A DNA stretch of 64,000 nucleotides from Idiomarina sp. (GTDB taxonomy: Bacteria > Pseudomonadota > Gammaproteobacteria > Enterobacterales > Alteromonadaceae). How positions within the stretch are numbered: position 1 is the stretch's first letter; each line of letters starts with the position of its first letter. Positions 21,398 to 53,549 of this stretch are shown here, piece by piece. The stretch lies in contig JAIUMU010000001.1 of assembly GCA_022565355.1 (NCBI GenBank), positions 124,001 through 188,000 of the forward strand, in the 5' to 3' direction. The position numbers were made by a program, and so were the translations under genes. Below the pieces are notes generated by a model, which was not told the DNA's origin, ran no database searches, and was given only the letters and a program-made list of their open reading frames with translations.

Positions 21398-22138
21398 TTA
21401 ACCATCAATAGAGCTAGGGCCTTCTATAGGGAAGGGGGTACTCAACGCTTCGCTGTGTTCAGCGGGTATATCGTTGTGATCACTAGGGAATACGGCGGCA
21501 ATGATATCGTCGTCTTCCTCCTGGCTCTCGCTGGCATCAGTTTGGTTGCGTTGGCCGTAGGTTACGTTCCAGGCAATTGCCGGTGCCGGAATATTATGCA
21601 AGTTGCCGCGGCTGGCAAGGCTAGGTGCTGATTTCTCTTGCTGGGTCTGGTTAGTTGCTTCGCCGCTTCCCGCAGTTGCCTCAGGCGTGCTTGCACTGGG
21701 CTCAGGGCTGTTTGTACTGGGCTCAGGGCTGTTTGCACTGCGCTCAGGACTGTTTGCACTGCGCTCAGGGCTGTGCGCATCGGCCGCAACCACAGTGCCA
21801 TCAACAGTGTTGCTGGCGGCACGGGCATCGGGTGCTGAACGGTGCGGCGGCATTTGTACATCGCGTAAATTTAAATTTAATAGCGTTAATTCACCCTCGT
21901 AACGGGATTTCGTATCGCTACTGAACCCAAATTGAAATTGTGCTTCCCAACCAGTGCGGGGGGTAAGCCGCAAGCGGCCACCTGAACGGGCAACATCCAA
22001 AAACTGCACTTTGTATTGCTTGCATACTGTTTCTGCGTGTTTACGCGCACTCTCTTCTTGTAACCGCCATTGCCAAAACAGGTACACGCCGAGAATCAGC
22101 AGTAATAGATATAACGCATCCATTAAACCGTCGGTCAT
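21398..22138 (-). CDS. DUF3301 protein with an inserted heptapeptide repeat tail
   Basis: 246 residues. An N-terminal membrane helix (about 6-24, MDALYLLLLILGVYLFW) and the following EESARKHAETVCKQYKVQFLDVA region plus RLRLTPRTGWEAQFQF are the DUF3301 core, which is normally only about 100 residues. From about residue 120 the protein changes to low-complexity sequence with heptads of the type NSPERSA, then an acidic tail ending at the terminus. The ATG overlaps the DUF3549 stop (TAATG). DUF3301 and DUF3549 are commonly adjacent to yqcC and truC. Function unknown. Confidence 0.82.
   Translation of the reverse strand: MTDGLMDALYLLLLILGVYLFWQWRLQEESARKHAETVCKQYKVQFLDVARSGGRLRLTPRTGWEAQFQFGFSSDTKSRYEGELTLLNLNLRDVQMPPHRSAPDARAASNTVDGTVVAADAHSPERSANSPERSANSPEPSTNSPEPSASTPEATAGSGEATNQTQQEKSAPSLASRGNLHNIPAPAIAWNVTYGQRNQTDASESQEEDDDIIAAVFPSDHNDIPAEHSEALSTPFPIEGPSSIDG
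21671..21775 (-). repeat. 21-bp minisatellite inside the DUF3301 gene (heptapeptide NSPERSA)
   Basis: Five tandem 21-bp units on the minus strand: 21775-21755, 21754-21734, 21733-21713, 21712-21692, and a diverged fifth at 21691-21671. Peptides are HSPERSA, NSPERSA, NSPEPST, NSPEPSA, STPEATA. The DNA unit consensus is AACAGCCCTGAGCGCAGTGC plus A. A closely related array lies in ynjB at 30730-30855. Confidence 0.9.
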
Positions 22139-27917: not shown

Positions 27918-30038
27918 ATGCAGTTTTCGAAAATTATTTTAATTCTTACTGTGGCCAGTTTATTGATACTGGCTTACGTGTTTGATGTGCAAAGTTACTT
28001 AAATTTGGAAACGCTGCGCGCAAACTACGCCGAGTTGGTGGCATGGAAAGATAACAATTTAATTATTGCAGTAACAGCCGCAATGGTGATTTATATTCTG
28101 GTTACCGCCTTATCAATTCCAGGCGCTGCGGTTATGACCCTGGCTGTTGGCGCGATTTTTGGTTTCTGGCACGGCCTCGTTATTGCTTCATTTGCATCTA
28201 CCATTGGCGCTACCTTAGCATTTTTGGCAGCGCGATTTTTATTGCGGGATTGGGTGCAAAGTAAGTTTAGTAATCGATTTACACAAATTGATGAGCGCTT
28301 CGCAAAAGATGGTGCGTTTTATCTTCTTTCGTTGCGCTTAGTGCCGTTATTTCCGTTTTTCATGATCAACTTACTTATGGGCTTAACGCGCATTCGTACC
28401 TTCACCTACTTTTGGGTGAGCCAGCTGGGGATGTTGGCGGGCACCGCGGTGTTCGTGAACGCAGGTACCCAACTGGCCACAATTCAAAGCCTTGGCGATG
28501 TATTTTCGTTCCAACTGGTGTTGTCATTTACCTTGCTGGGTATTTTCCCGCTGATTGCCAAAGTGATTGTGAATGTGCTGCAGCGTAGAAAACGGCTAAA
28601 AAACTGGCAAAAACCGAAAGTGTTTGATCGTAATTTAATTGTGATTGGTGGGGGTTCTGCTGGCCTTGTTTCGGCGTATATCGCTGCAACAGTGAAGGCC
28701 AAAGTAACCCTGATTGAACAGCATAAGATGGGCGGTGATTGTTTGAATACCGGCTGTGTACCATCGAAAACCTTGATCAATATCGCCCGCAAGCATGCCG
28801 CGCTAAACAAGGCAAATGGCACTTCTCAGCCGATACAACTGAGCAGTGCAATGGCCAAAGTAGAGCAGGTGATTAAAGATATTGAGCCGCATGATTCAGT
28901 GGAGCGCTATACGAACTTGGGCGTTGAGGTGTTGCAAGGACATGCCACTATTACATCGCCCTGGCAGGTAGAGATTACTACGAATGCTGGCACCCAAACG
29001 CTTACTGCCCGCAGCATTATTGTGGCTACAGGTGCGAAGCCTTTTGTGCCGCCTATCCCTGGTTTAAGTGATATTCCGTATCGCACCAGCGATAGTGTGT
29101 GGGAGCTAGAACAGTTGCCGCCACGATTGCTGGTGTTGGGCGGTGGCCCCATTGGTTGTGAACTGGCCGCGGCCTTTGCCAACCTTGGTAGTAAGGTTAC
29201 TGTGCTGGAAGCAGAACAACGTTTGTTAAGTAAAGAAGATGAAGATGCTGCGGAAATGGTTACTGATTCCATGCAACAGCAGGGCGTACAGATTGTAACT
29301 GGCAAGAAAGCCGTTCGTTTTGCCCAGGAAGGCGGAGAAAGCTTGGTGTATGTTGAGGGTGAAGAGCAGCCACTGCGCACAGATTGTGTGTTGGTAGCCG
29401 TTGGTAGAGCTGCGAATTTAAGTGGTTTTGGTTTGGATGAATTGGGAGTGGAAACAGAGCGTACCTTGCCGGTGAATGCGCTAATGCAAACGGAGATCCC
29501 TTCAATTTATGCTGCGGGTGATGTAGCCGGGCCATATCAGTTTACTCATGTGGCCGCACATCAAGCTTGGTACGCCAGTGTGAATGCATTGTTTGCGCCA
29601 TTGAAGAGCTTTGCTGCAGATTATCGGGTAATACCGCGCGCTACTTTCACTGATCCGGAAGTTGCTGCGGTAGGTTTAAATGAGCTTGAGGCAAAAGCAC
29701 AGCATATAGATTACGAAGTAACTCGCTATGATATGAGCGATTTAGATCGCGCCATAGCGGATGATGTGGCCTATGGCTTCGTTAAAGTACTCACGAAACC
29801 TGGGAAAGATGAAATTCTTGGAGTAACCATTGTTGGAGCGCGTGCTTCGGAGCAAATTAGCGAGTTTGTGTTAGCGATGAAGTATAAATTGGGTTTGAAT
29901 AAAATTTTGGGCACCATTCATATTTACCCAACCATGAGCGAAGCGAATAAATATGTAGCCGGCGAATGGCGCAAAGCACACAAGCCAGAGCGCGCTTTGG
30001 CGTGGTTAGAGAAGTTTCATGCGTGGCGAAGAGGCTAG
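27918..30038 (+). CDS. VTT-domain (TVP38/DedA-like) membrane protein fused to a flavin disulfide oxidoreductase
   Basis: 706 residues in two parts. Residues 1-230 hold several membrane helices with the VTT/TVP38 signature (LSIPGAAVMTLAVGAIFGFW; LRLVPLFPFFMINLLMGLTRI). Residues 235-706 are a pyridine-nucleotide-disulfide oxidoreductase: FAD motif VIGGGSAGLVSAYIAA, redox pair Cys275/Cys280 in GGDCLNTGCVPSKT, NAD(P) motif VLGGGPIGCELAAAF, and AAGDVAGPYQFTHVAAHQA. The C-terminal dimer motif reads HIYPTMSEAN, with Tyr where dihydrolipoamide dehydrogenases have the active-site His of HPT. In E. coli separate VTT genes (ydjX, ydjZ) lie beside ynjABCD, so the fusion probably belongs with the following transporter. 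Substrate unknown. Confidence 0.88.
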   Translation: MQFSKIILILTVASLLILAYVFDVQSYLNLETLRANYAELVAWKDNNLIIAVTAAMVIYILVTALSIPGAAVMTLAVGAIFGFWHGLVIASFASTIGATLAFLAARFLLRDWVQSKFSNRFTQIDERFAKDGAFYLLSLRLVPLFPFFMINLLMGLTRIRTFTYFWVSQLGMLAGTAVFVNAGTQLATIQSLGDVFSFQLVLSFTLLGIFPLIAKVIVNVLQRRKRLKNWQKPKVFDRNLIVIGGGSAGLVSAYIAATVKAKVTLIEQHKMGGDCLNTGCVPSKTLINIARKHAALNKANGTSQPIQLSSAMAKVEQVIKDIEPHDSVERYTNLGVEVLQGHATITSPWQVEITTNAGTQTLTARSIIVATGAKPFVPPIPGLSDIPYRTSDSVWELEQLPPRLLVLGGGPIGCELAAAFANLGSKVTVLEAEQRLLSKEDEDAAEMVTDSMQQQGVQIVTGKKAVRFAQEGGESLVYVEGEEQPLRTDCVLVAVGRAANLSGFGLDELGVETERTLPVNALMQTEIPSIYAAGDVAGPYQFTHVAAHQAWYASVNALFAPLKSFAADYRVIPRATFTDPEVAAVGLNELEAKAQHIDYEVTRYDMSDLDRAIADDVAYGFVKVLTKPGKDEILGVTIVGARASEQISEFVLAMKYKLGLNKILGTIHIYPTMSEANKYVAGEWRKAHKPERALAWLEKFHAWRRG

Positions 30039-30039
30039 A

Positions 30040-31398
30040 ATGCGGGTGTTTCAGTATGTTTTAGTGTTGGTAACGTTGTTTACTTTCTCTACCAGTGCCG
30101 CGGTTAGTGGTTCGGCAGAGAAGGATAAGGTACCGCAAAACTGGCAAGACATTACCGCCGAGGCGCGCGGGCAAACTGTGTATTTTCATGGCTGGGGTGG
30201 CTCAGCGGAAGCCAACCGATATATGCGCTGGGCTGCTACGCAGCTACAGGAAAAGTATGGGGTGCGTTTACGCCATGTGCGTGTTGCTGATATTCGTGAA
30301 TCGGTGAATTTATTATTGAATGAGCAAGCAAGCCAAGGTGATGATTACCGTAGCGCCATTGATTTGATTTGGATTAATGGTAAGAATTTCCATGCGTTAA
30401 AAGAAGCGGGTTTATTAACTGCCGATTTATCCACGCAAATTCCGAACAGTGCATTACTAAACCCGGAACATTTATATGAGTTAGATTTTGGGGTGCCCAC
30501 CCAAGATTTGGAATTACCTTGGGGAGTGGCACAGTTTTACCTGATGCTATCAGAGCGTGCTCAAGCATCATTGCTTGCAGCTAGGGAGAACGATCCCCAG
30601 GTTCATCAGGCTCAGATATCGGCTGAGCAGTTGCTGGCGTTTGCAAAAGCCAATCCCGGCCGCGTTAGCTACCCAAAACCGCCAGAGTTTCATGGCACCA
30701 CGTTCCTTAAGCAGGTGTTACTTGCGCTTAACAGCCCTGAGCGTACGGCAAACAGCCCTGAGCCCTCGGTAAACAGCCCTGAGCTCTCCAGAAACAGCCC
30801 TGAGCGCTCGGTAAACAGCCCTGAGCGCTCCGGAGAAAACCCTGAGCAAGAGTACATCAGGGTAGAGCACCTGTACGAAGAATATCATGCCGAGCGCCAC
30901 GCACCGATATTGGCGGCACTGTTTAGTTACCTTGATCAACTCCATCCACACATGTGGCGTGAAGGACGCGCATTCCCCAACAGTGCAGCAGAGCAAATGC
31001 GGATGTTTGCCGATGGCCAATTGGATATCGCGGTTAGCTTTAATCCTGGAGCCTTACCCAGTGGTATTCAACGGGGCACCATAGCAGCAGTTACCATGCC
31101 GGCAAGCTTAGGAGCAGAGGCGATTACTAATAGCCATTACCTTGCTATTCCCAAGCACAGTAAACAACAAGCCGGCGCATTGGTAGCACTTAACTTTCTA
31201 CTTTCAGAAGCAGCGCAACGGCACAAAGCAAACCTAGATGTGTGGGGCGACCCAGCTGCTATTGTGTTGCCCTATTTATCGGTAAAGAATTTATCGGTAG
31301 AGAATTCCCCCATAGAGCTGATATTTCCTGCTGCGCAAGAACCACATGTGAGTTGGAATGCTGTGTTGGAGCAGGCGTGGCGTGAGCGCTATGAATAA
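30040..31398 (+). CDS. ynjB: ABC transporter substrate-binding protein, YnjB family, with inserted heptad repeats
   Basis: 452 residues from the ATG at 30040, just after the preceding stop (30036-30038) and 5 nt after GAGG; an earlier in-frame ATG at 30019 would overlap that gene. A Sec signal peptide (VFQYVLVLVTLFTFSTSAAVS) precedes a periplasmic binding fold with VYFHGWGGSAEANRYMRW, IDLIWINGKNFHALKEAGLL and LPWGVAQFYLM, as in E. coli YnjB. Residues 231-272 are an insertion of six heptads (NSPERTA type) in a surface region. A second small duplication, LSVKN/LSVEN (31276-31305), lies near the C-terminus. Probable importer component of unknown substrate, working with YnjC and YnjD. Confidence 0.9.
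   Translation: MRVFQYVLVLVTLFTFSTSAAVSGSAEKDKVPQNWQDITAEARGQTVYFHGWGGSAEANRYMRWAATQLQEKYGVRLRHVRVADIRESVNLLLNEQASQGDDYRSAIDLIWINGKNFHALKEAGLLTADLSTQIPNSALLNPEHLYELDFGVPTQDLELPWGVAQFYLMLSERAQASLLAARENDPQVHQAQISAEQLLAFAKANPGRVSYPKPPEFHGTTFLKQVLLALNSPERTANSPEPSVNSPELSRNSPERSVNSPERSGENPEQEYIRVEHLYEEYHAERHAPILAALFSYLDQLHPHMWREGRAFPNSAAEQMRMFADGQLDIAVSFNPGALPSGIQRGTIAAVTMPASLGAEAITNSHYLAIPKHSKQQAGALVALNFLLSEAAQRHKANLDVWGDPAAIVLPYLSVKNLSVENSPIELIFPAAQEPHVSWNAVLEQAWRERYE
30730..30855 (+). repeat. 21-bp minisatellite inside ynjB (heptapeptide NSPERSV)
   Basis: Six tandem 21-bp units: 30730, 30751, 30772, 30793, 30814 and a diverged one at 30835. Peptides are NSPERTA, NSPEPSV, NSPELSR, NSPERSV, NSPERSG, ENPEQEY. 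The first 12 nt AACAGCCCTGAG are invariant in the first five units. The unit contains the palindrome GAGCGCTC in two copies. The DNA matches the array at 21671-21775 in the same coding frame. Confidence 0.92.
31276..31305 (+). repeat. 15-bp direct duplication in ynjB
   Basis: Two adjacent 15-bp units encoding LSVKN and LSVEN, differing at one base. Being a multiple of three, the duplication keeps the reading frame. Confidence 0.8.
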
Positions 31399-31495
31399 AA
31401 CACTATGAGTGTACTGCTATGAGTGCGCTGCGATGAGTACACCCCTATGAGTGAACTACTATGCGTACAACGCGATGAGTAAACTACTTGGATGA
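31391..31495 (+). repeat. 14-bp tandem array forming a chain of ATGA-overlapping micro-ORFs between ynjB and ynjC
   Basis: Units start at 31391, 31405, 31419, 31433, 31447, 31461 and 31475 (the last is 17 bp); ynjC at 31492 begins with the same motif. All eight begin ATG. The ORFs are MNKTL (31391-31408), MSVLL (31405-31422), MSALR (31419-31436), MSTPL (31433-31450), MSELLCVQRDE (31447-31482), MRTTR (31461-31478) and MSKLLG (31475-31495). Each TGA overlaps the next ATG except that unit 5 starts ATGC, so unit 4 runs on and stops beside the unit 6 start instead. The first ATG overlaps the ynjB TAA (31396-31398), and the last TGA overlaps the ynjC ATG. No ordinary Shine-Dalgarno precedes ynjC. 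Confidence 0.85.
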
Positions 31496-33186
31496 ACAAA
31501 CTACTTGAGTGGCCGAAAATATCGATAGCACTGCTGGCGTTGCCGGCAGTGCTATTAATCGGGCTGCCGTTAGTGGCTGCGGTGTGGTTAATTATTACGA
31601 TACTCACCCAGAATGGCAGCCAAGATTGGCTCTTATTTCTGAGTGTTGGTTCGGTGCTTACCGGTTTAGTTTACAGTATTGCTTTGGCGATCATTCCTAC
31701 ATTGCTGGCGCTGTATAGCGCATTTTGGTTGCTTGCTAGAATGACCAAGCCACCCGCGTGGATGGCAGCGTTGTTAGCCATTCCCCATGTTGCTTTTGCA
31801 ATAGGATTAAGCCTGTTATTGCTGCCTGGCGGTTGGATTAGCCGAGTATGGTTAGGGTTAGATTTGCAACTGCAAATACCTTTGCTAACGCCATTTTTGA
31901 GCGCTATTTTCACTGATAAAAGCCTACCATTTTTACTTGTTACCTTGTGGCTAAAAGAGCTACCGTTTTTATTGTTAATGGCGCTGATCGTAATGCAACA
32001 GTTGCCGGTGCGAGAGTGGCAACAGGTAGGAGCCAGTTTTGGGTATCGAGCCCCACAAACATTTTGGCGCATTATCGTTCCCCAGCTTGTGCGTAGGCTA
32101 CGGTTGCCAATTATGGTGGTGGCTATTTACGGGTTAGCGGTGGTAGATGTTGCCTTAGTGGCGGGCCCAAATTTACCAAGCCCACTCGCCGTGCAAGTAT
32201 TGCAATGGTATCAACAGCCTGGAAGTGAGTTATTTGCCGCGCTTGGCAGTGTAGTATTGCTTGTTGCTAGTGCGCTGGTGTTACTGCTGTTTCGCGGGCA
32301 TGAGTGGTTACACGGCCAATGCGCACGGCTCGCAGTTACTCGCGGTGTGAACATTGCTGGCCAAGCAACCTTACCAAGCTTTGTGCAGGGGCCAGGCATT
32401 GCGCGTTTACGGAAGTTCTTGGCGCAGTTGCCGTTTGCAGCGTTTTTAGTGGTGCAGATTGCTACCGTAATCGCGTTGCTGTTATGGTCTTTCACTGCAG
32501 CTTGGCCGAATACGGCATTGCTTCCTACTAGCTACAGTGTTGCGAACTGGCAATGGGAATGGCAGCCTTTACAAGAAGTGTTATGGAACTCATTGTGGAT
32601 TGGGGTGGTGGTAGCTTCTTTAGCTACGGTATTGGTACTACTAATGCTTGAGTGGGAATACCAACGCGGCAAGCGAATTGCAGATGCTTATATGTTGTTG
32701 CCTCTGTTAGTACCGCAATTACCCTTGGTAATGGCTTGGCATATGCATGTTGCACCCTTTACGCTAGCAGCACCTGCGTTTTGGCTGGTGTGGGCGCATA
32801 CGGTGTTTGCCGCCGCATATATTTGGCTTACGTTAGCTGCAAGTTATCGTAATTTTCCTAATATGTGGCTTACTCAAGCAGCTACGCTCGGCTACTCAGC
32901 GCCACAACGTTGGTTTAAGGTGCGTTTGCGCATGTTAGCTGCCCCGATTGTGTTGGCGTGGTCGGTGGGTTTTTCGGTGAGTATTTTGCAGTACTTGCCC
33001 ACGTTGATTTTTGGCGCAGGGCGTATTCTTACCGTAACTACTGAAGCTACGGCCTATGGTAGCGGTTTTGAACGTTCGCTAGCGGCGATCTATGGCCTAG
33101 CACAGATCGCTTGGCCGTTAATCATGTTTGTAGTGGCGGCAATATTAGCGAATAAATATCGCGTTCATACAATACGAGGTGCATAA
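31492..33186 (+). CDS. ynjC: ABC transporter permease, YnjC family (two fused permease domains)
   Basis: 564 residues, strongly hydrophobic, about 12 membrane helices in two homologous halves, as in E. coli YnjC. Each half has the permease coupling (EAA-like) loop: VGASFGYRAPQTFWRIIVPQL (first half) and AATLGYSAPQRWFKVRLRML (second half). The ATG overlaps the last micro-ORF stop and its first codons (MNKLLEW) copy the array unit, so the array arose from, or gave rise to, this N-terminus. It ends directly against ynjD. Confidence 0.92.
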   Translation: MNKLLEWPKISIALLALPAVLLIGLPLVAAVWLIITILTQNGSQDWLLFLSVGSVLTGLVYSIALAIIPTLLALYSAFWLLARMTKPPAWMAALLAIPHVAFAIGLSLLLLPGGWISRVWLGLDLQLQIPLLTPFLSAIFTDKSLPFLLVTLWLKELPFLLLMALIVMQQLPVREWQQVGASFGYRAPQTFWRIIVPQLVRRLRLPIMVVAIYGLAVVDVALVAGPNLPSPLAVQVLQWYQQPGSELFAALGSVVLLVASALVLLLFRGHEWLHGQCARLAVTRGVNIAGQATLPSFVQGPGIARLRKFLAQLPFAAFLVVQIATVIALLLWSFTAAWPNTALLPTSYSVANWQWEWQPLQEVLWNSLWIGVVVASLATVLVLLMLEWEYQRGKRIADAYMLLPLLVPQLPLVMAWHMHVAPFTLAAPAFWLVWAHTVFAAAYIWLTLAASYRNFPNMWLTQAATLGYSAPQRWFKVRLRMLAAPIVLAWSVGFSVSILQYLPTLIFGAGRILTVTTEATAYGSGFERSLAAIYGLAQIAWPLIMFVVAAILANKYRVHTIRGA

Positions 33187-33816
33187 GTGCTGCAGTTGAA
33201 CAATGTTGTGATAACCCTGAAAGGTGCGAAGCAGCCCATGCTTGAGGTGCCGCAATTAAGCATTGCGGCAGGCGAAATTGTGGTGCTGATGGGGGCAAGT
33301 GGAAGTGGTAAAAGCACTTTATTGAACTGGTTAATTGGCGCGCCATTACCAAATTTTCAGTGTACTGGTGAGGTGCTGTTGCATGGTGCGCCTATTCAGC
33401 AACTACCTATGGAACAACGCCATATTGGCATTCGCTTGCAACAACCGTGGTTATTTCCCCATTTAACCGTACTCGAGAACTTACTGTTTGCATTGCCGCG
33501 TGATTTTGGGAGCCGGCATCAGCGAGTACAACATGCAGAACACTTGTTAACCGCGTTTAATTTGTTCGCTGTACAAAAACAACTACCCGATACGCTCAGT
33601 GGTGGCCAAGCGGCTCGTGTATCATTGGCACGTGCGTTGATTAATAATCCGCAAGCGATGTTATTAGATGAACCTTTCTCCGCTTTAGATAAAGCGACAC
33701 GAGAACAAATTAAGACATTTACCTTCAATCACTTAATGCAGGCGCAACTACCTTGCTTATTGGTAACCCATGATAGCGGTGATTGCCCAACAGGAGCGCG
33801 TGTTATTCATGTTTGA
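33187..33816 (+). CDS. ynjD: ABC transporter ATP-binding protein, YnjD family
   Basis: 209 residues from GTG 33187, contiguous with the ynjC stop. Walker A is GASGSGKST, the Q-loop lies in RLQQPWLFPHLTVLENLL, the signature is LSGGQAARVSLARAL, Walker B is AMLLDEPFSALD and the switch His is in LLVTHDSGD. It is a minimal nucleotide-binding domain without a regulatory extension. It energises the YnjC permease. Confidence 0.94.
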   Translation: MLQLNNVVITLKGAKQPMLEVPQLSIAAGEIVVLMGASGSGKSTLLNWLIGAPLPNFQCTGEVLLHGAPIQQLPMEQRHIGIRLQQPWLFPHLTVLENLLFALPRDFGSRHQRVQHAEHLLTAFNLFAVQKQLPDTLSGGQAARVSLARALINNPQAMLLDEPFSALDKATREQIKTFTFNHLMQAQLPCLLVTHDSGDCPTGARVIHV

Positions 33817-34420
33817 TCATCGAGTATTACCGCTATTGAAGCGCATTACCTTGCCATTGGCACAGCAGCTCGTGAAAATGCAGGTGCGCGCGGATCATGT
33901 TACCGTGGCGGGCTTTGTTGTAGGCGTATTGGCCTGCATAGCAGTGGTTTTAAGCCAATTTTGGCTGGCCTTGGTGCTGTTGTTGCTGAATCGCCTTGCC
34001 GATGGCATTGATGGCGAGCTAGCGCGCTTGCAGGAGCCCACCGATAGTGGCGCATACTTGGATATCGTGCTTGATTTCCTGTTCTACAATGGCTTTGTGG
34101 TAGCGTTTATTTTGTTGCATCCTGAGGCTAATGCCATTGCTGGTGCGGTATTAATGCTTAGCTTTGTGGGTACCGGGATTAGTTTTCTGGCGTTTGCCAC
34201 CTTGGCTGCTAAACGCGGCATTAGTAATCCGCGCTATCCCAGTAAATCCTTGTATTATCTTGGTGGCTTAACGGAAGGCACCGAAACAGTAGTTGTGTTT
34301 GCGCTCTTCTGTTTGTTGCCGCAGTACTTTGCCATATTGGCGTACTGCTTTGCGGCGCTTTGTTTTATTACCGCAGCGATGCGAATTGTGGGTGGCTATC
34401 AAACTCTGCGAGCCGATTAA
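33809..34420 (+). CDS. ynjF: CDP-alcohol phosphatidyltransferase family protein, YnjF-like
   Basis: 203 residues from the ATG at 33809, which overlaps the ynjD end; AGGAG lies at 33792-33796. The family motif is visible as ADGIDGELARLQEPTDSGAYLD followed by IVLD (DG, AR, G, D, D residues). About five membrane helices follow, and GGLTEGTETVVVFALFCLLP resembles E. coli YnjF closely. The family transfers a phosphatidyl group from a CDP-alcohol to an acceptor alcohol in the inner membrane; the acceptor here is unknown. E. coli ynjF also lies by ynjD/E. Confidence 0.88.
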   Translation: MFDHRVLPLLKRITLPLAQQLVKMQVRADHVTVAGFVVGVLACIAVVLSQFWLALVLLLLNRLADGIDGELARLQEPTDSGAYLDIVLDFLFYNGFVVAFILLHPEANAIAGAVLMLSFVGTGISFLAFATLAAKRGISNPRYPSKSLYYLGGLTEGTETVVVFALFCLLPQYFAILAYCFAALCFITAAMRIVGGYQTLRAD

Positions 34421-38768: not shown

Positions 38769-38811
38769 AGTAATACTGAACCTTATGCTTTTTGCTACCT
38801 ACGCAGGTAAT

Positions 38812-38881
38812 GCAAGCAGTTACGTGCAAGCAGTTACCTGCAAGCAAATACGCGTAAGCAAATATGTGCAAGGGTAAATGC
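38812..38881. repeat. 14-bp tandem array between map and rpsB
   Basis: Five 14-bp units: 38812 GCAAGCAGTTACGT, 38826 GCAAGCAGTTACCT, 38840 GCAAGCAAATACGC, 38854 GTAAGCAAATATGT, and a diverged fifth at 38868 GCAAGGGTAAATGC. It sits 44 nt upstream of the map start (minus strand) and about 110 nt upstream of the rpsB promoter. Unlike the 31391 array it contains no chain of ATG codons on the map strand. Confidence 0.85.
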
Positions 38882-52219: not shown

Positions 52220-52275
52220 GTTCTTTATGAAGGTTGGTATTAAGGCCTTTATGATTCCTTGCTTTGTAGTTGCAT

Positions 52276-52311
52276 AAGAAGGCGCATAAGAAGGCGCACA
52301 AGAAGGCGCAT
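52276..52311 (+). repeat. 12-bp tandem array just upstream of lpxB
   Basis: Three units AAGAAGGCGCAT, AAGAAGGCGCAC, AAGAAGGCGCAT at 52276, 52288 and 52300, ending 5 nt before the lpxB GTG. Each unit carries AGAAGG, a Shine-Dalgarno-like core, though the nearest one lies about 10 nt from the start codon. Copy number could modulate translation. Confidence 0.85.
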
Positions 52312-52316
52312 TTAGG

Positions 52317-53549
52317 GTGGCAGAATTGCATTCGAACACGAATGAAGCTCAACAAGTTGCAGAGAAGGGCGCTATACAGCGCCCTTTGCTTATTGGCATT
52401 GTTGCGGGTGAGGCTTCTGGCGATATTCTTGGTGCTAGCTTAATGGCCGGTTTGAAACAGTTGCAACCGCAAGTGCGCTTTATTGGCGTAGGCGGACCGC
52501 GGATGCAGGCGGAGGGTTTGCAAAGCTTATTTGCAATGGAAACTCTTTCAGTGATGGGTTTTGTAGATGTGCTAAAACAACTACCGAGTTTATTACGGGC
52601 TCGTAAGCAGGTGGTGAGTAGTATGTTAGCAGAACAGCCTGATGCGTTTATTGGTATTGATGCACCAGATTTTAATCTGCCAATAGAGAAAAAGCTGAAA
52701 AAGGCCGGCATTCGTACACTCCATTATGTTTCGCCATCGGTATGGGCATGGCGGCCCAAGCGTATTTATGGCATTGCTGAAGCCACTAATATGGTGCTTG
52801 GTATTCTGCCGTTTGAAGCGGATTTTTATGCTCAGTATCAGGTGCCATACACCTTTGTGGGGCACCCATTAGCAGATAAGTTTCCCCGTGAATCATGCAA
52901 ACAGGCTGCACGCGCTAGTTTGCAACTGGATGAAACAAAGCAATATGTGGGGATTCTTCCTGGTAGCCGTAGCAGTGAGGTAGGGCATTTGGCCGGGCCT
53001 TTTATTGATGCTGCTATTGCTTTGCAAAAACAACATCCGGATTTACAGTTTTTAGTTCCCCTAGTGAACGAGGCGCGCAAGGCGCAGTTTCTAGCCGCAT
53101 TAGCGGAGCGCAAGGCACAGTTGAATTTGCACTTGTTCGCGGGGCAAAGCCATGACGTAATTGCTGCTAGCGATGCTACCATTCTTGCCTCTGGCACAGT
53201 GGCGTTGGAAGCTATGTTAATTAAACGGCCGATGGTGGTGTGTTACCGCTTTGGTTGGTTAAATTTCCAACTTATTAAACATTTTGTGAAAGTGCGCTTT
53301 TTCTCCTTACCAAATTTACTGCATACAGCTGCATCAGGCGTGCAGCAAGGCGAGAAACCTTATCAACAGCCGCTGGTAAAAGAATTACTACAAAATGAAG
53401 TGAGTGGCGCCAACATTGCCGCAACGGTAGAACAGCTGCTTACTAGCGATAATACCCAACTATATCAACGTTATCAGGAGCTTCACGCGCAACTGCAACA
53501 AGACGCGAGCTCGATATCGGCACAAACGGTGCTCGATACCATTCGTTAG
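52317..53549 (+). CDS. lpxB: lipid-A-disaccharide synthase
   Basis: 410 residues (E. coli 382). An N-terminal tail of about 25 residues precedes the core IGIVAGEASGDILGASLMAGL; no better later start is visible than GTG 52317. Further GT-B blocks are FIGVGGPRMQAEG, PSVWAWRPKRIYGIAE, ILPGSRSSEVGHLAGPF and ASGTVALEAMLIKRPMVVCYR. Condenses UDP-diacylglucosamine with lipid X. rnhB and dnaE, its usual downstream neighbours, are absent here. Confidence 0.96.
   Translation: MAELHSNTNEAQQVAEKGAIQRPLLIGIVAGEASGDILGASLMAGLKQLQPQVRFIGVGGPRMQAEGLQSLFAMETLSVMGFVDVLKQLPSLLRARKQVVSSMLAEQPDAFIGIDAPDFNLPIEKKLKKAGIRTLHYVSPSVWAWRPKRIYGIAEATNMVLGILPFEADFYAQYQVPYTFVGHPLADKFPRESCKQAARASLQLDETKQYVGILPGSRSSEVGHLAGPFIDAAIALQKQHPDLQFLVPLVNEARKAQFLAALAERKAQLNLHLFAGQSHDVIAASDATILASGTVALEAMLIKRPMVVCYRFGWLNFQLIKHFVKVRFFSLPNLLHTAASGVQQGEKPYQQPLVKELLQNEVSGANIAATVEQLLTSDNTQLYQRYQELHAQLQQDASSISAQTVLDTIR

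Follow-up and report, generated by a model that had tools for sequence, protein, structure and literature searches.

Between the ynjB-like and ynjC-like genes of Idiomarina sp., which are predicted to encode the substrate-binding protein and the permease of an ATP-binding cassette (ABC) transporter, lies a tandem array of short units that each begin with a start codon. Here, we report a computational analysis of this array and of its surroundings within the window, a stretch of 64,000 nucleotides (nt) from assembly GCA_022565355.1 (contig JAIUMU010000001.1, positions 124,001 to 188,000), to which all coordinates refer. The ynjB gene (30019..31398, + strand) matches NCBIfam PRK11622.1 with an E value of 1.3e-117. 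The ynjC gene (31492..33186, + strand), which has relatives by homology and starts in the register of the array, encodes a protein with no Pfam match and a weak match to the NCBIfam PotC permease (E 4.3e-4, far under the cut-off). Both gene names are taken from an earlier note on this DNA. The operon status of the pair was assigned from same-strand adjacency, and start sites are the choices of an open reading frame (ORF) caller, not annotations.

From the ynjB stop to the ynjC start there are 93 nt, spanned by seven ATG-initiated units with ATGs at 31391, 31405, 31419, 31433, 31447, 31461 and 31475, followed by the ynjC ATG at 31492. The earlier note had described 14-bp units throughout; six of the seven ATG-to-ATG steps are indeed 14 nt long, and the final step, that of unit 7, is 17 nt. 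Its other basic observations are borne out: the array is real, ATG is present in all eight starts, ynjC included, with A as the next letter in seven of the eight, and the listed micro-peptides are correct, namely MNKTL (unit 1, 31391..31408), MSVLL (unit 2, 31405..31422), MSALR (unit 3, 31419..31436), MSTPL (unit 4, 31433..31450), MSELLCVQRDE (unit 5, 31447..31482), MRTTR (unit 6, 31461..31478) and MSKLLG (unit 7, 31475..31495), all on the + strand. The ORFs have five codons in units 1-4 and 6 and six codons in unit 7, and each of these ends with a TGA that overlaps the following ATG, which for unit 7 is that of ynjC.

Two junctions depart from this scheme. The 3' codons of ynjB, CGC TAT GAA TAA, contain the ATG of unit 1, and the TAA (31396-31398) and unit 1 share an 8-nt overlap, ATGAATAA; the overlap claimed for this junction exists, in the 8-nt form and not as ATGA. 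Unit 6 starts with ATGC and, because no TGA lies over its ATG, the ORF of unit 5 extends to 11 codons, ending in a TAA (31480-31482) within unit 7, again with an 8-nt overlap (ATGAGTAA), so that unit 6 falls outside the stop/start chain. The best stop-to-start path from ynjB to ynjC comprises hops of -8, -4, -4, -4, -4, -8 and -4, the first and sixth being alike in form (ATGARTAA). A relay through every junction, as envisaged earlier, is consequently right in its -8/-4 geometry and wrong for unit 6, which is bypassed. Stop and start codons overlap at each link of the chain, as at coupled (termination-reinitiation) junctions.

Tandem Repeats Finder scores the array at 66 for period 14 and at 81 for period 28. 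Pairs of units are identical in 6 to 13 of 14 letters, unlike the near-identical units of fast contingency (phase-variation) repeats. Within the genome to which the window belongs, three ATGA motifs at 14-nt spacing occur in the array only (three overlapping matches; two for the reversed control pattern), and the tested unit pattern was not found there a second time.

Origin of the array and its start codons

The ynjC gene was found in four of the 17 sampled genomes of the genus, including the one studied here, and the array is absent from the ynjB-ynjC junction of the same-genus relatives G011 and G016. In these (loci L003 and L002), an in-frame ynjC ATG lies within the last ynjB codons, at -8, as ATGAATAG or ATGAGTAA, although this start site is only a predicted one because other in-frame starts lie upstream. 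In both relatives, ynjB ends with RYE and a stop, as it does in the window, and the three YnjB proteins align through the last residue; in G013, the predicted ynjC start is also inside the end of ynjB, at a different place. Since two relatives have a direct overlap and no array, the first 14 nt of ynjC appear to have been expanded locally in tandem to give the array. Given the position of the relatives' ynjC ATG in the end of ynjB and the shared YnjB C-terminus, unit 1, whose ATG matches the presumed ancestral start, would most simply be the old ynjC start, and the current start would be the last copy. The comparison of spacers among relatives, which the earlier note had suggested, has two sides: the array is missing from the two nearest relatives, which goes part of the way towards the refutation named there, and the direct overlap in its place fits an expansion that preserved coupling. 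The ynjB gene itself contains a 21-nt in-frame tandem repeat (NSPExxx; 30730..30847, +) and, near its 3' end, a 15-nt in-frame tandem repeat of 2.2 copies (31274..31306, +); both are missing in G011 and G016, which suggests that the stretch from ynjB to the array is prone to tandem expansion.

The interiors of the units have diverged and the ATGs have been kept, as previously remarked: over the eight copies, non-consensus cells number 0/24 in the ATG columns and 23/88 in the other columns (p 0.003; p 0.018 for ATG retention in units 2-7 alone). That the ATGs are held by selection is suggestive only, because the array was spotted by its ATGs and the copies share ancestry.

The claim that ynjC lacks a normal Shine-Dalgarno sequence also holds. 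The anti-Shine-Dalgarno energy is -2.2 kcal/mol at ynjC, against -5.2, the median of 279 predicted ORF starts of the same genome, and -1.9 for random sites, so that the match at ynjC is random-like. The best value of the array, -4.7 kcal/mol, belongs to unit 1, and units 2-7 range from +0.5 to -3.2 kcal/mol. The ribosome-binding stretch of ynjC seems to have been left behind at unit 1.

ATGA arrays at other gene pairs

Four ATGA motifs at 14-nt spacing were matched in 45 of 394 genomes of the order, many of the arrays being intergenic; the reversed control pattern also matched many genomes. We call an array double-anchored if an upstream stop lies at its first unit and a downstream start at or shortly after its last. 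Before counting, arrays of period 7 (23 bacterial, 46 viral) and those with unit similarity <0.5 were removed, and eight of the 39 remaining 14-nt bacterial arrays among the places listed, that of the window included, are double-anchored. Linkage was assessed in 12 double-anchored arrays: these eight, two of 13 nt, one of 11 nt (L245, which the period and similarity filter had taken out of the anchoring count) and a three-copy case in the same-genus genome G004. In nine of the 12 (the window, L139, L161, L164, L166, L174, L178, L021 and L192), hops are of at most 3 nt. By Pfam, the flanking genes encode uroporphyrinogen decarboxylase and an alpha/beta hydrolase (L139), an acyl-CoA dehydrogenase and a short-chain dehydrogenase (L161), MobA-like and MobB proteins (L164), a response regulator and a sensor kinase (L021 and L178), an ABC ATPase and a protein without a Pfam match that was taken as its permease (L174), and a von Willebrand A protein at L166, where the upstream gene only was scanned.

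Two concentrations of such arrays were seen along the way. At predicted gene starts, G091 has several ATGA arrays of 13 nt and 14 nt (L150, L166, L197 and L212), and several genomes of genus g19 have near-identical sets of ATGA at 11-nt spacing (L229-L232, L234, L235 and L237-L239). The latter resemble what we take to be a Pho box, which suggests that 11-nt ATGA arrays are in part transcription-factor sites.

Three series of homologous junctions, for the first two of which upstream partners were assigned by position, show arrays beside simpler forms, those first two being the most informative. Among 11 species of one genus, the mobA-mobB junction is a plain ATGA overlap in one, has one linked 14-nt unit in six and three units in one, so that the eight coupled species have 0, 1 or 3 units, with differing interiors. 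In the remaining three of the 11, the mobA stop is displaced upstream and each junction has at least one broken unit, with in-frame stops or a length of 13 nt; this resembles a loss of constraint, although a single lineage may account for all three. For the ATPase-permease pair of genus g23, 58 loci from 60 genomes were followed, G430 and G459 (26-27% identity) being left out. The permease start lies within -30 to +3 in 45 of the 58 loci, 31 of them at -8; 12 loci were scored as displaced and one, which we take to be that of G452, was unscored. G318 has three added 14-nt units, the first of which retains the -8 ATG. The permease ATGs of G452 and G426 are at +48 and +36, and in each case one micro-ORF runs from the -8 ATG to the new start, where it meets an ATGA, and the anti-Shine-Dalgarno match is better at the -8 ATG than at the new start. 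The kinase gene behind the three-copy array of G004 has its nearest homologue in the genus (40% identity) in G006, where the junction is a plain ATGA overlap.

Anchoring was also compared between repeat periods. In 388-394 genomes of the order, the bacterial scan covered periods 14, 13, 11 and 17, with the first places per genome listed (among these, 13 places of period 11 and one of period 13 were left out), and the viral scan covered contigs at periods 14, 13, 17, 16, 11 and 10, with at most 80 loci per scan. Beside the 8/39 given above, double-anchored bacterial arrays with similar units amount to 2/23 at 13 nt, 0/12 at 11 nt and 0/9 at 17 nt among the places listed; among the viral matches listed, the counts are 2/30 at 14 nt, 1/62 at 13 nt, 2/54 at 17 nt, 2/61 at 16 nt, 0/73 at 11 nt and 3/58 at 10 nt.

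Proposed ribosomal relay and rival explanations

The reading that we favor, with a probability of roughly 0.6, is that the array was born by slippage at an already coupled junction and serves as a ribosomal relay, through which ynjC stays coupled to ynjB. Originally, an 8-nt stop/start overlap would have coupled ynjC to ynjB, and slippage would have expanded the first 14 nt of ynjC in tandem, with a last step of 17 nt. Because the units measure 14 or 17 nt, both 2 mod 3, and the unit starts with ATGA, each added copy yields a micro-ORF of five or six codons, the stop of which overlaps the start that follows. After finishing ynjB, ribosomes would reinitiate at unit 1, terminate within a few codons at the start of the following unit and continue in this manner to ynjC, and the relay would thereby span 93 nt that otherwise would largely break coupling. 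If ribosomes terminate and reinitiate along the array, as they most likely do, the expansion has kept the two genes coupled. Some ribosomes would be lost at each hop, lowering YnjC relative to YnjB. Both the use of the chain by ribosomes and the selection that would keep its links are inferred from sequence. In favor stand the direct overlap of the two relatives, the unbroken -8/-4 chain, the ATGs kept in diverged interiors, the stronger Shine-Dalgarno match at unit 1 and the comparable arrays of other gene pairs. Published work describes coupling through overlapping stop and start codons as general (Huber et al. 2019, PMC6728339); in six native gene pairs of E. coli and Haloferax, coupling almost disappeared with a spacer of about 20 nt, and reinitiation in two E. 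coli pairs needed no more of the upstream gene than its last 15 nt (2023, PMC10666635).

Several results weigh against the relay. The chain of short ORFs is largely an arithmetic consequence of a 14-nt ATGA repeat; unbroken chains arise in 29% of shuffles with the ATGs fixed and in 18% with all letters shuffled. The ATG test is post hoc, on units of common ancestry, and the relatives have in-frame starts further upstream (an ATG in G016, a TTG in G011). Three of the 12 double-anchored arrays are poorly linked (hops of 19 nt at L140, 9 at L212 and 8 at L245), and of the 14 bacterial arrays of 14 nt in or behind which a gene starts, six have no upstream gene that ends there. Ten permease starts of g23 are displaced by 4-9 nt without a bridge, and the bridges of G452 and G426 have chance probabilities of 0.34 and 0.69. 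Selection for repeat lengths of 2 mod 3 was considered and dropped, there being no clear phase effect in the bacterial or the viral scans. Duplicated starts, 61 in 758 loci, fall 20, 31 and 10 times at 0, 1 and 2 mod 3, a count that we set aside as a test because many of the loci had been chosen for set-period repeats, but in which 2 mod 3 is not favored. In 464 kb of the genome studied here, overlapping micro-ORFs bridge two of 92 spaced pairs (1.3 expected), one of which is ynjBC, and direct overlaps occur in another 48 pairs, at -8 in seven of them. A survey of ynjC at 80 loci of named genomes, nearly all Vibrionaceae and with upstream partners assigned by position, found none of 63 starts displaced within 150 nt to be bridged (0.4 expected; many are displaced only 4-12 nt), which argues that the relay is no general feature of ynjBC. 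Shine-Dalgarno energies, calculated for 20 of the 23 ynjC starts displaced by at least 24 nt (L069, L099 and L119 left out), are strong for eight (-7.0 to -8.5 kcal/mol) and weaker for 12, so weak, displaced starts without a relay do exist. As for distance, hyfH-hyfI of E. coli is reported to have retained 60% coupling at 14 nt (PMC10666635), and a review mentions studies that find coupling across longer spacers (PMC12548453).

The main rival is a neutral leftover, with the ynjC start copied by slippage, ynjC now starting independently (de novo or by scanning) and the micro-ORFs idle. In its favor, linking is near automatic at a unit length of 14 nt, arrays of 13 nt also occur at gene starts, some arrays stand at starts without a coupled upstream gene, the phase effect is absent, and ynjB has its own 21-nt and 15-nt repeats. 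This possibility nevertheless appears doubtful to us, given that the ATGs are retained despite diverged interiors, that the Shine-Dalgarno match of ynjC is random-like and that no promoter-like site was found on the + strand between 30317 and 33850. The earlier note had proposed a device whose copy number is adapted to set the YnjB:YnjC ratio. A binding protein and a permease are commonly required in unequal amounts, and the number of mobA-mobB units varies among species; however, neither another strain of the species nor a copy-number variant at ynjBC was found, and the divergence of the units makes fast copy-number change unlikely. We regard such selected tuning as improbable; the array may have a regulatory purpose beyond the relay that would keep ynjC coupled, itself the most likely reading. 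An element acting in DNA or transcription, be it a promoter, a binding-site array or an RNA structure, is the hardest to reconcile with the data and very improbable, even though the 11-nt arrays of g19 presumably resemble Pho boxes. The array contains no promoter-like site, no unusual RNA fold (z-score -0.2) and no match to an Rfam family at E up to 0.1, so neither the fold nor the known RNA family of a leader-peptide attenuator or structured RNA element is present, and its unit pattern, in the form tested, is not repeated elsewhere in the genome. A repeat-bearing spacer with promoter activity is nonetheless on record, that of senX3-regX3 with its mycobacterial interspersed repetitive units (MIRUs), according to PMC4213456.

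Returning to the relay, the array offers a natural test of the serial hand-on of post-termination ribosomes: it asks whether stop/start overlap alone, through five- and six-codon micro-ORFs, carries translation over about 90 nt. Comparable arrays at unrelated gene pairs suggest that tandem duplication at coupled starts is a tolerated and so far overlooked route, which may alter protein ratios. We give a lower probability to the wider proposition that slippage-born start-codon relays, built from the first codons of the downstream gene, recurrently lengthen coupled junctions of bacterial operons without uncoupling them, stay linked under selection and provide an expression ratio that can evolve stepwise.

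The surroundings of the array contain further repeats. The core AACAGCCCTGAG of the 21-nt in-frame repeats (peptide NSPExxx) is present in two different open frames, at 21680-21774 (-) and 30730-30847 (+), and another single copy is found at L027:17800 in the 464 kb examined. A second 14-nt tandem array of the window, 38811-38872 (TGCAAGCAAATACG), lies outside open frames of at least 120 codons, and a 12-nt tandem array, 52272-52311 (GCATAAGAAGGC), is located at the 5' end of the open frame 52290-53549. The apparent operon 27918-34420 comprises an oxidoreductase gene (mercuric-reductase-like, with what we take to be an N-terminal membrane domain), ynjB, ynjC, an ABC ATPase gene and a phosphatidyltransferase-like gene, with several junctions that overlap or have zero gap.

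Comparison with known systems

Apart from the MIRUs of the senX3-regX3 spacer, for which Supply et al. 1997 is reportedly the reference cited, we found no tandem start-codon relay in the literature searched. Gene pairs that overlap and are translated by termination-reinitiation share with ynjB-ynjC the short -4 or -8 stop/start overlap of each link (PMC6728339 and PMC10666635); they have one overlap each, in place of which ynjB-ynjC has a chain of micro-ORFs. Short upstream ORFs that couple translation, whether natural (PMC12548453) or synthetic (PMC13255528), are similar in that a short ORF delivers ribosomes onward. They differ from the present case, in which several micro-ORFs would act in series without a strong internal ribosome-binding site.

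The MIRUs are described, in PMC12548453 and PMC4213456, as ATGA-coupled micro-ORF repeats, so the statement in the earlier note that the array has no described precedent does not stand. Both systems place several copies of such repeats between two operon genes, and the MIRU units of 77 bp and 53 bp are 2 mod 3 in length, as are 14 nt and 17 nt here. Strains differ in the senX3-regX3 spacer, with three 77-bp units or two 77-bp units and one of 53 bp (PMC4213456); the analogous variation in our data is that between species at mobA-mobB. In contrast to the MIRU, a unit of 53-77 bp that is dispersed in the genome and apparently mobile, the ynjC unit is 14 nt long, local and copied from the start of the very gene that follows it. 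By this analogy, the array would work like a MIRU series, yet it is no MIRU.
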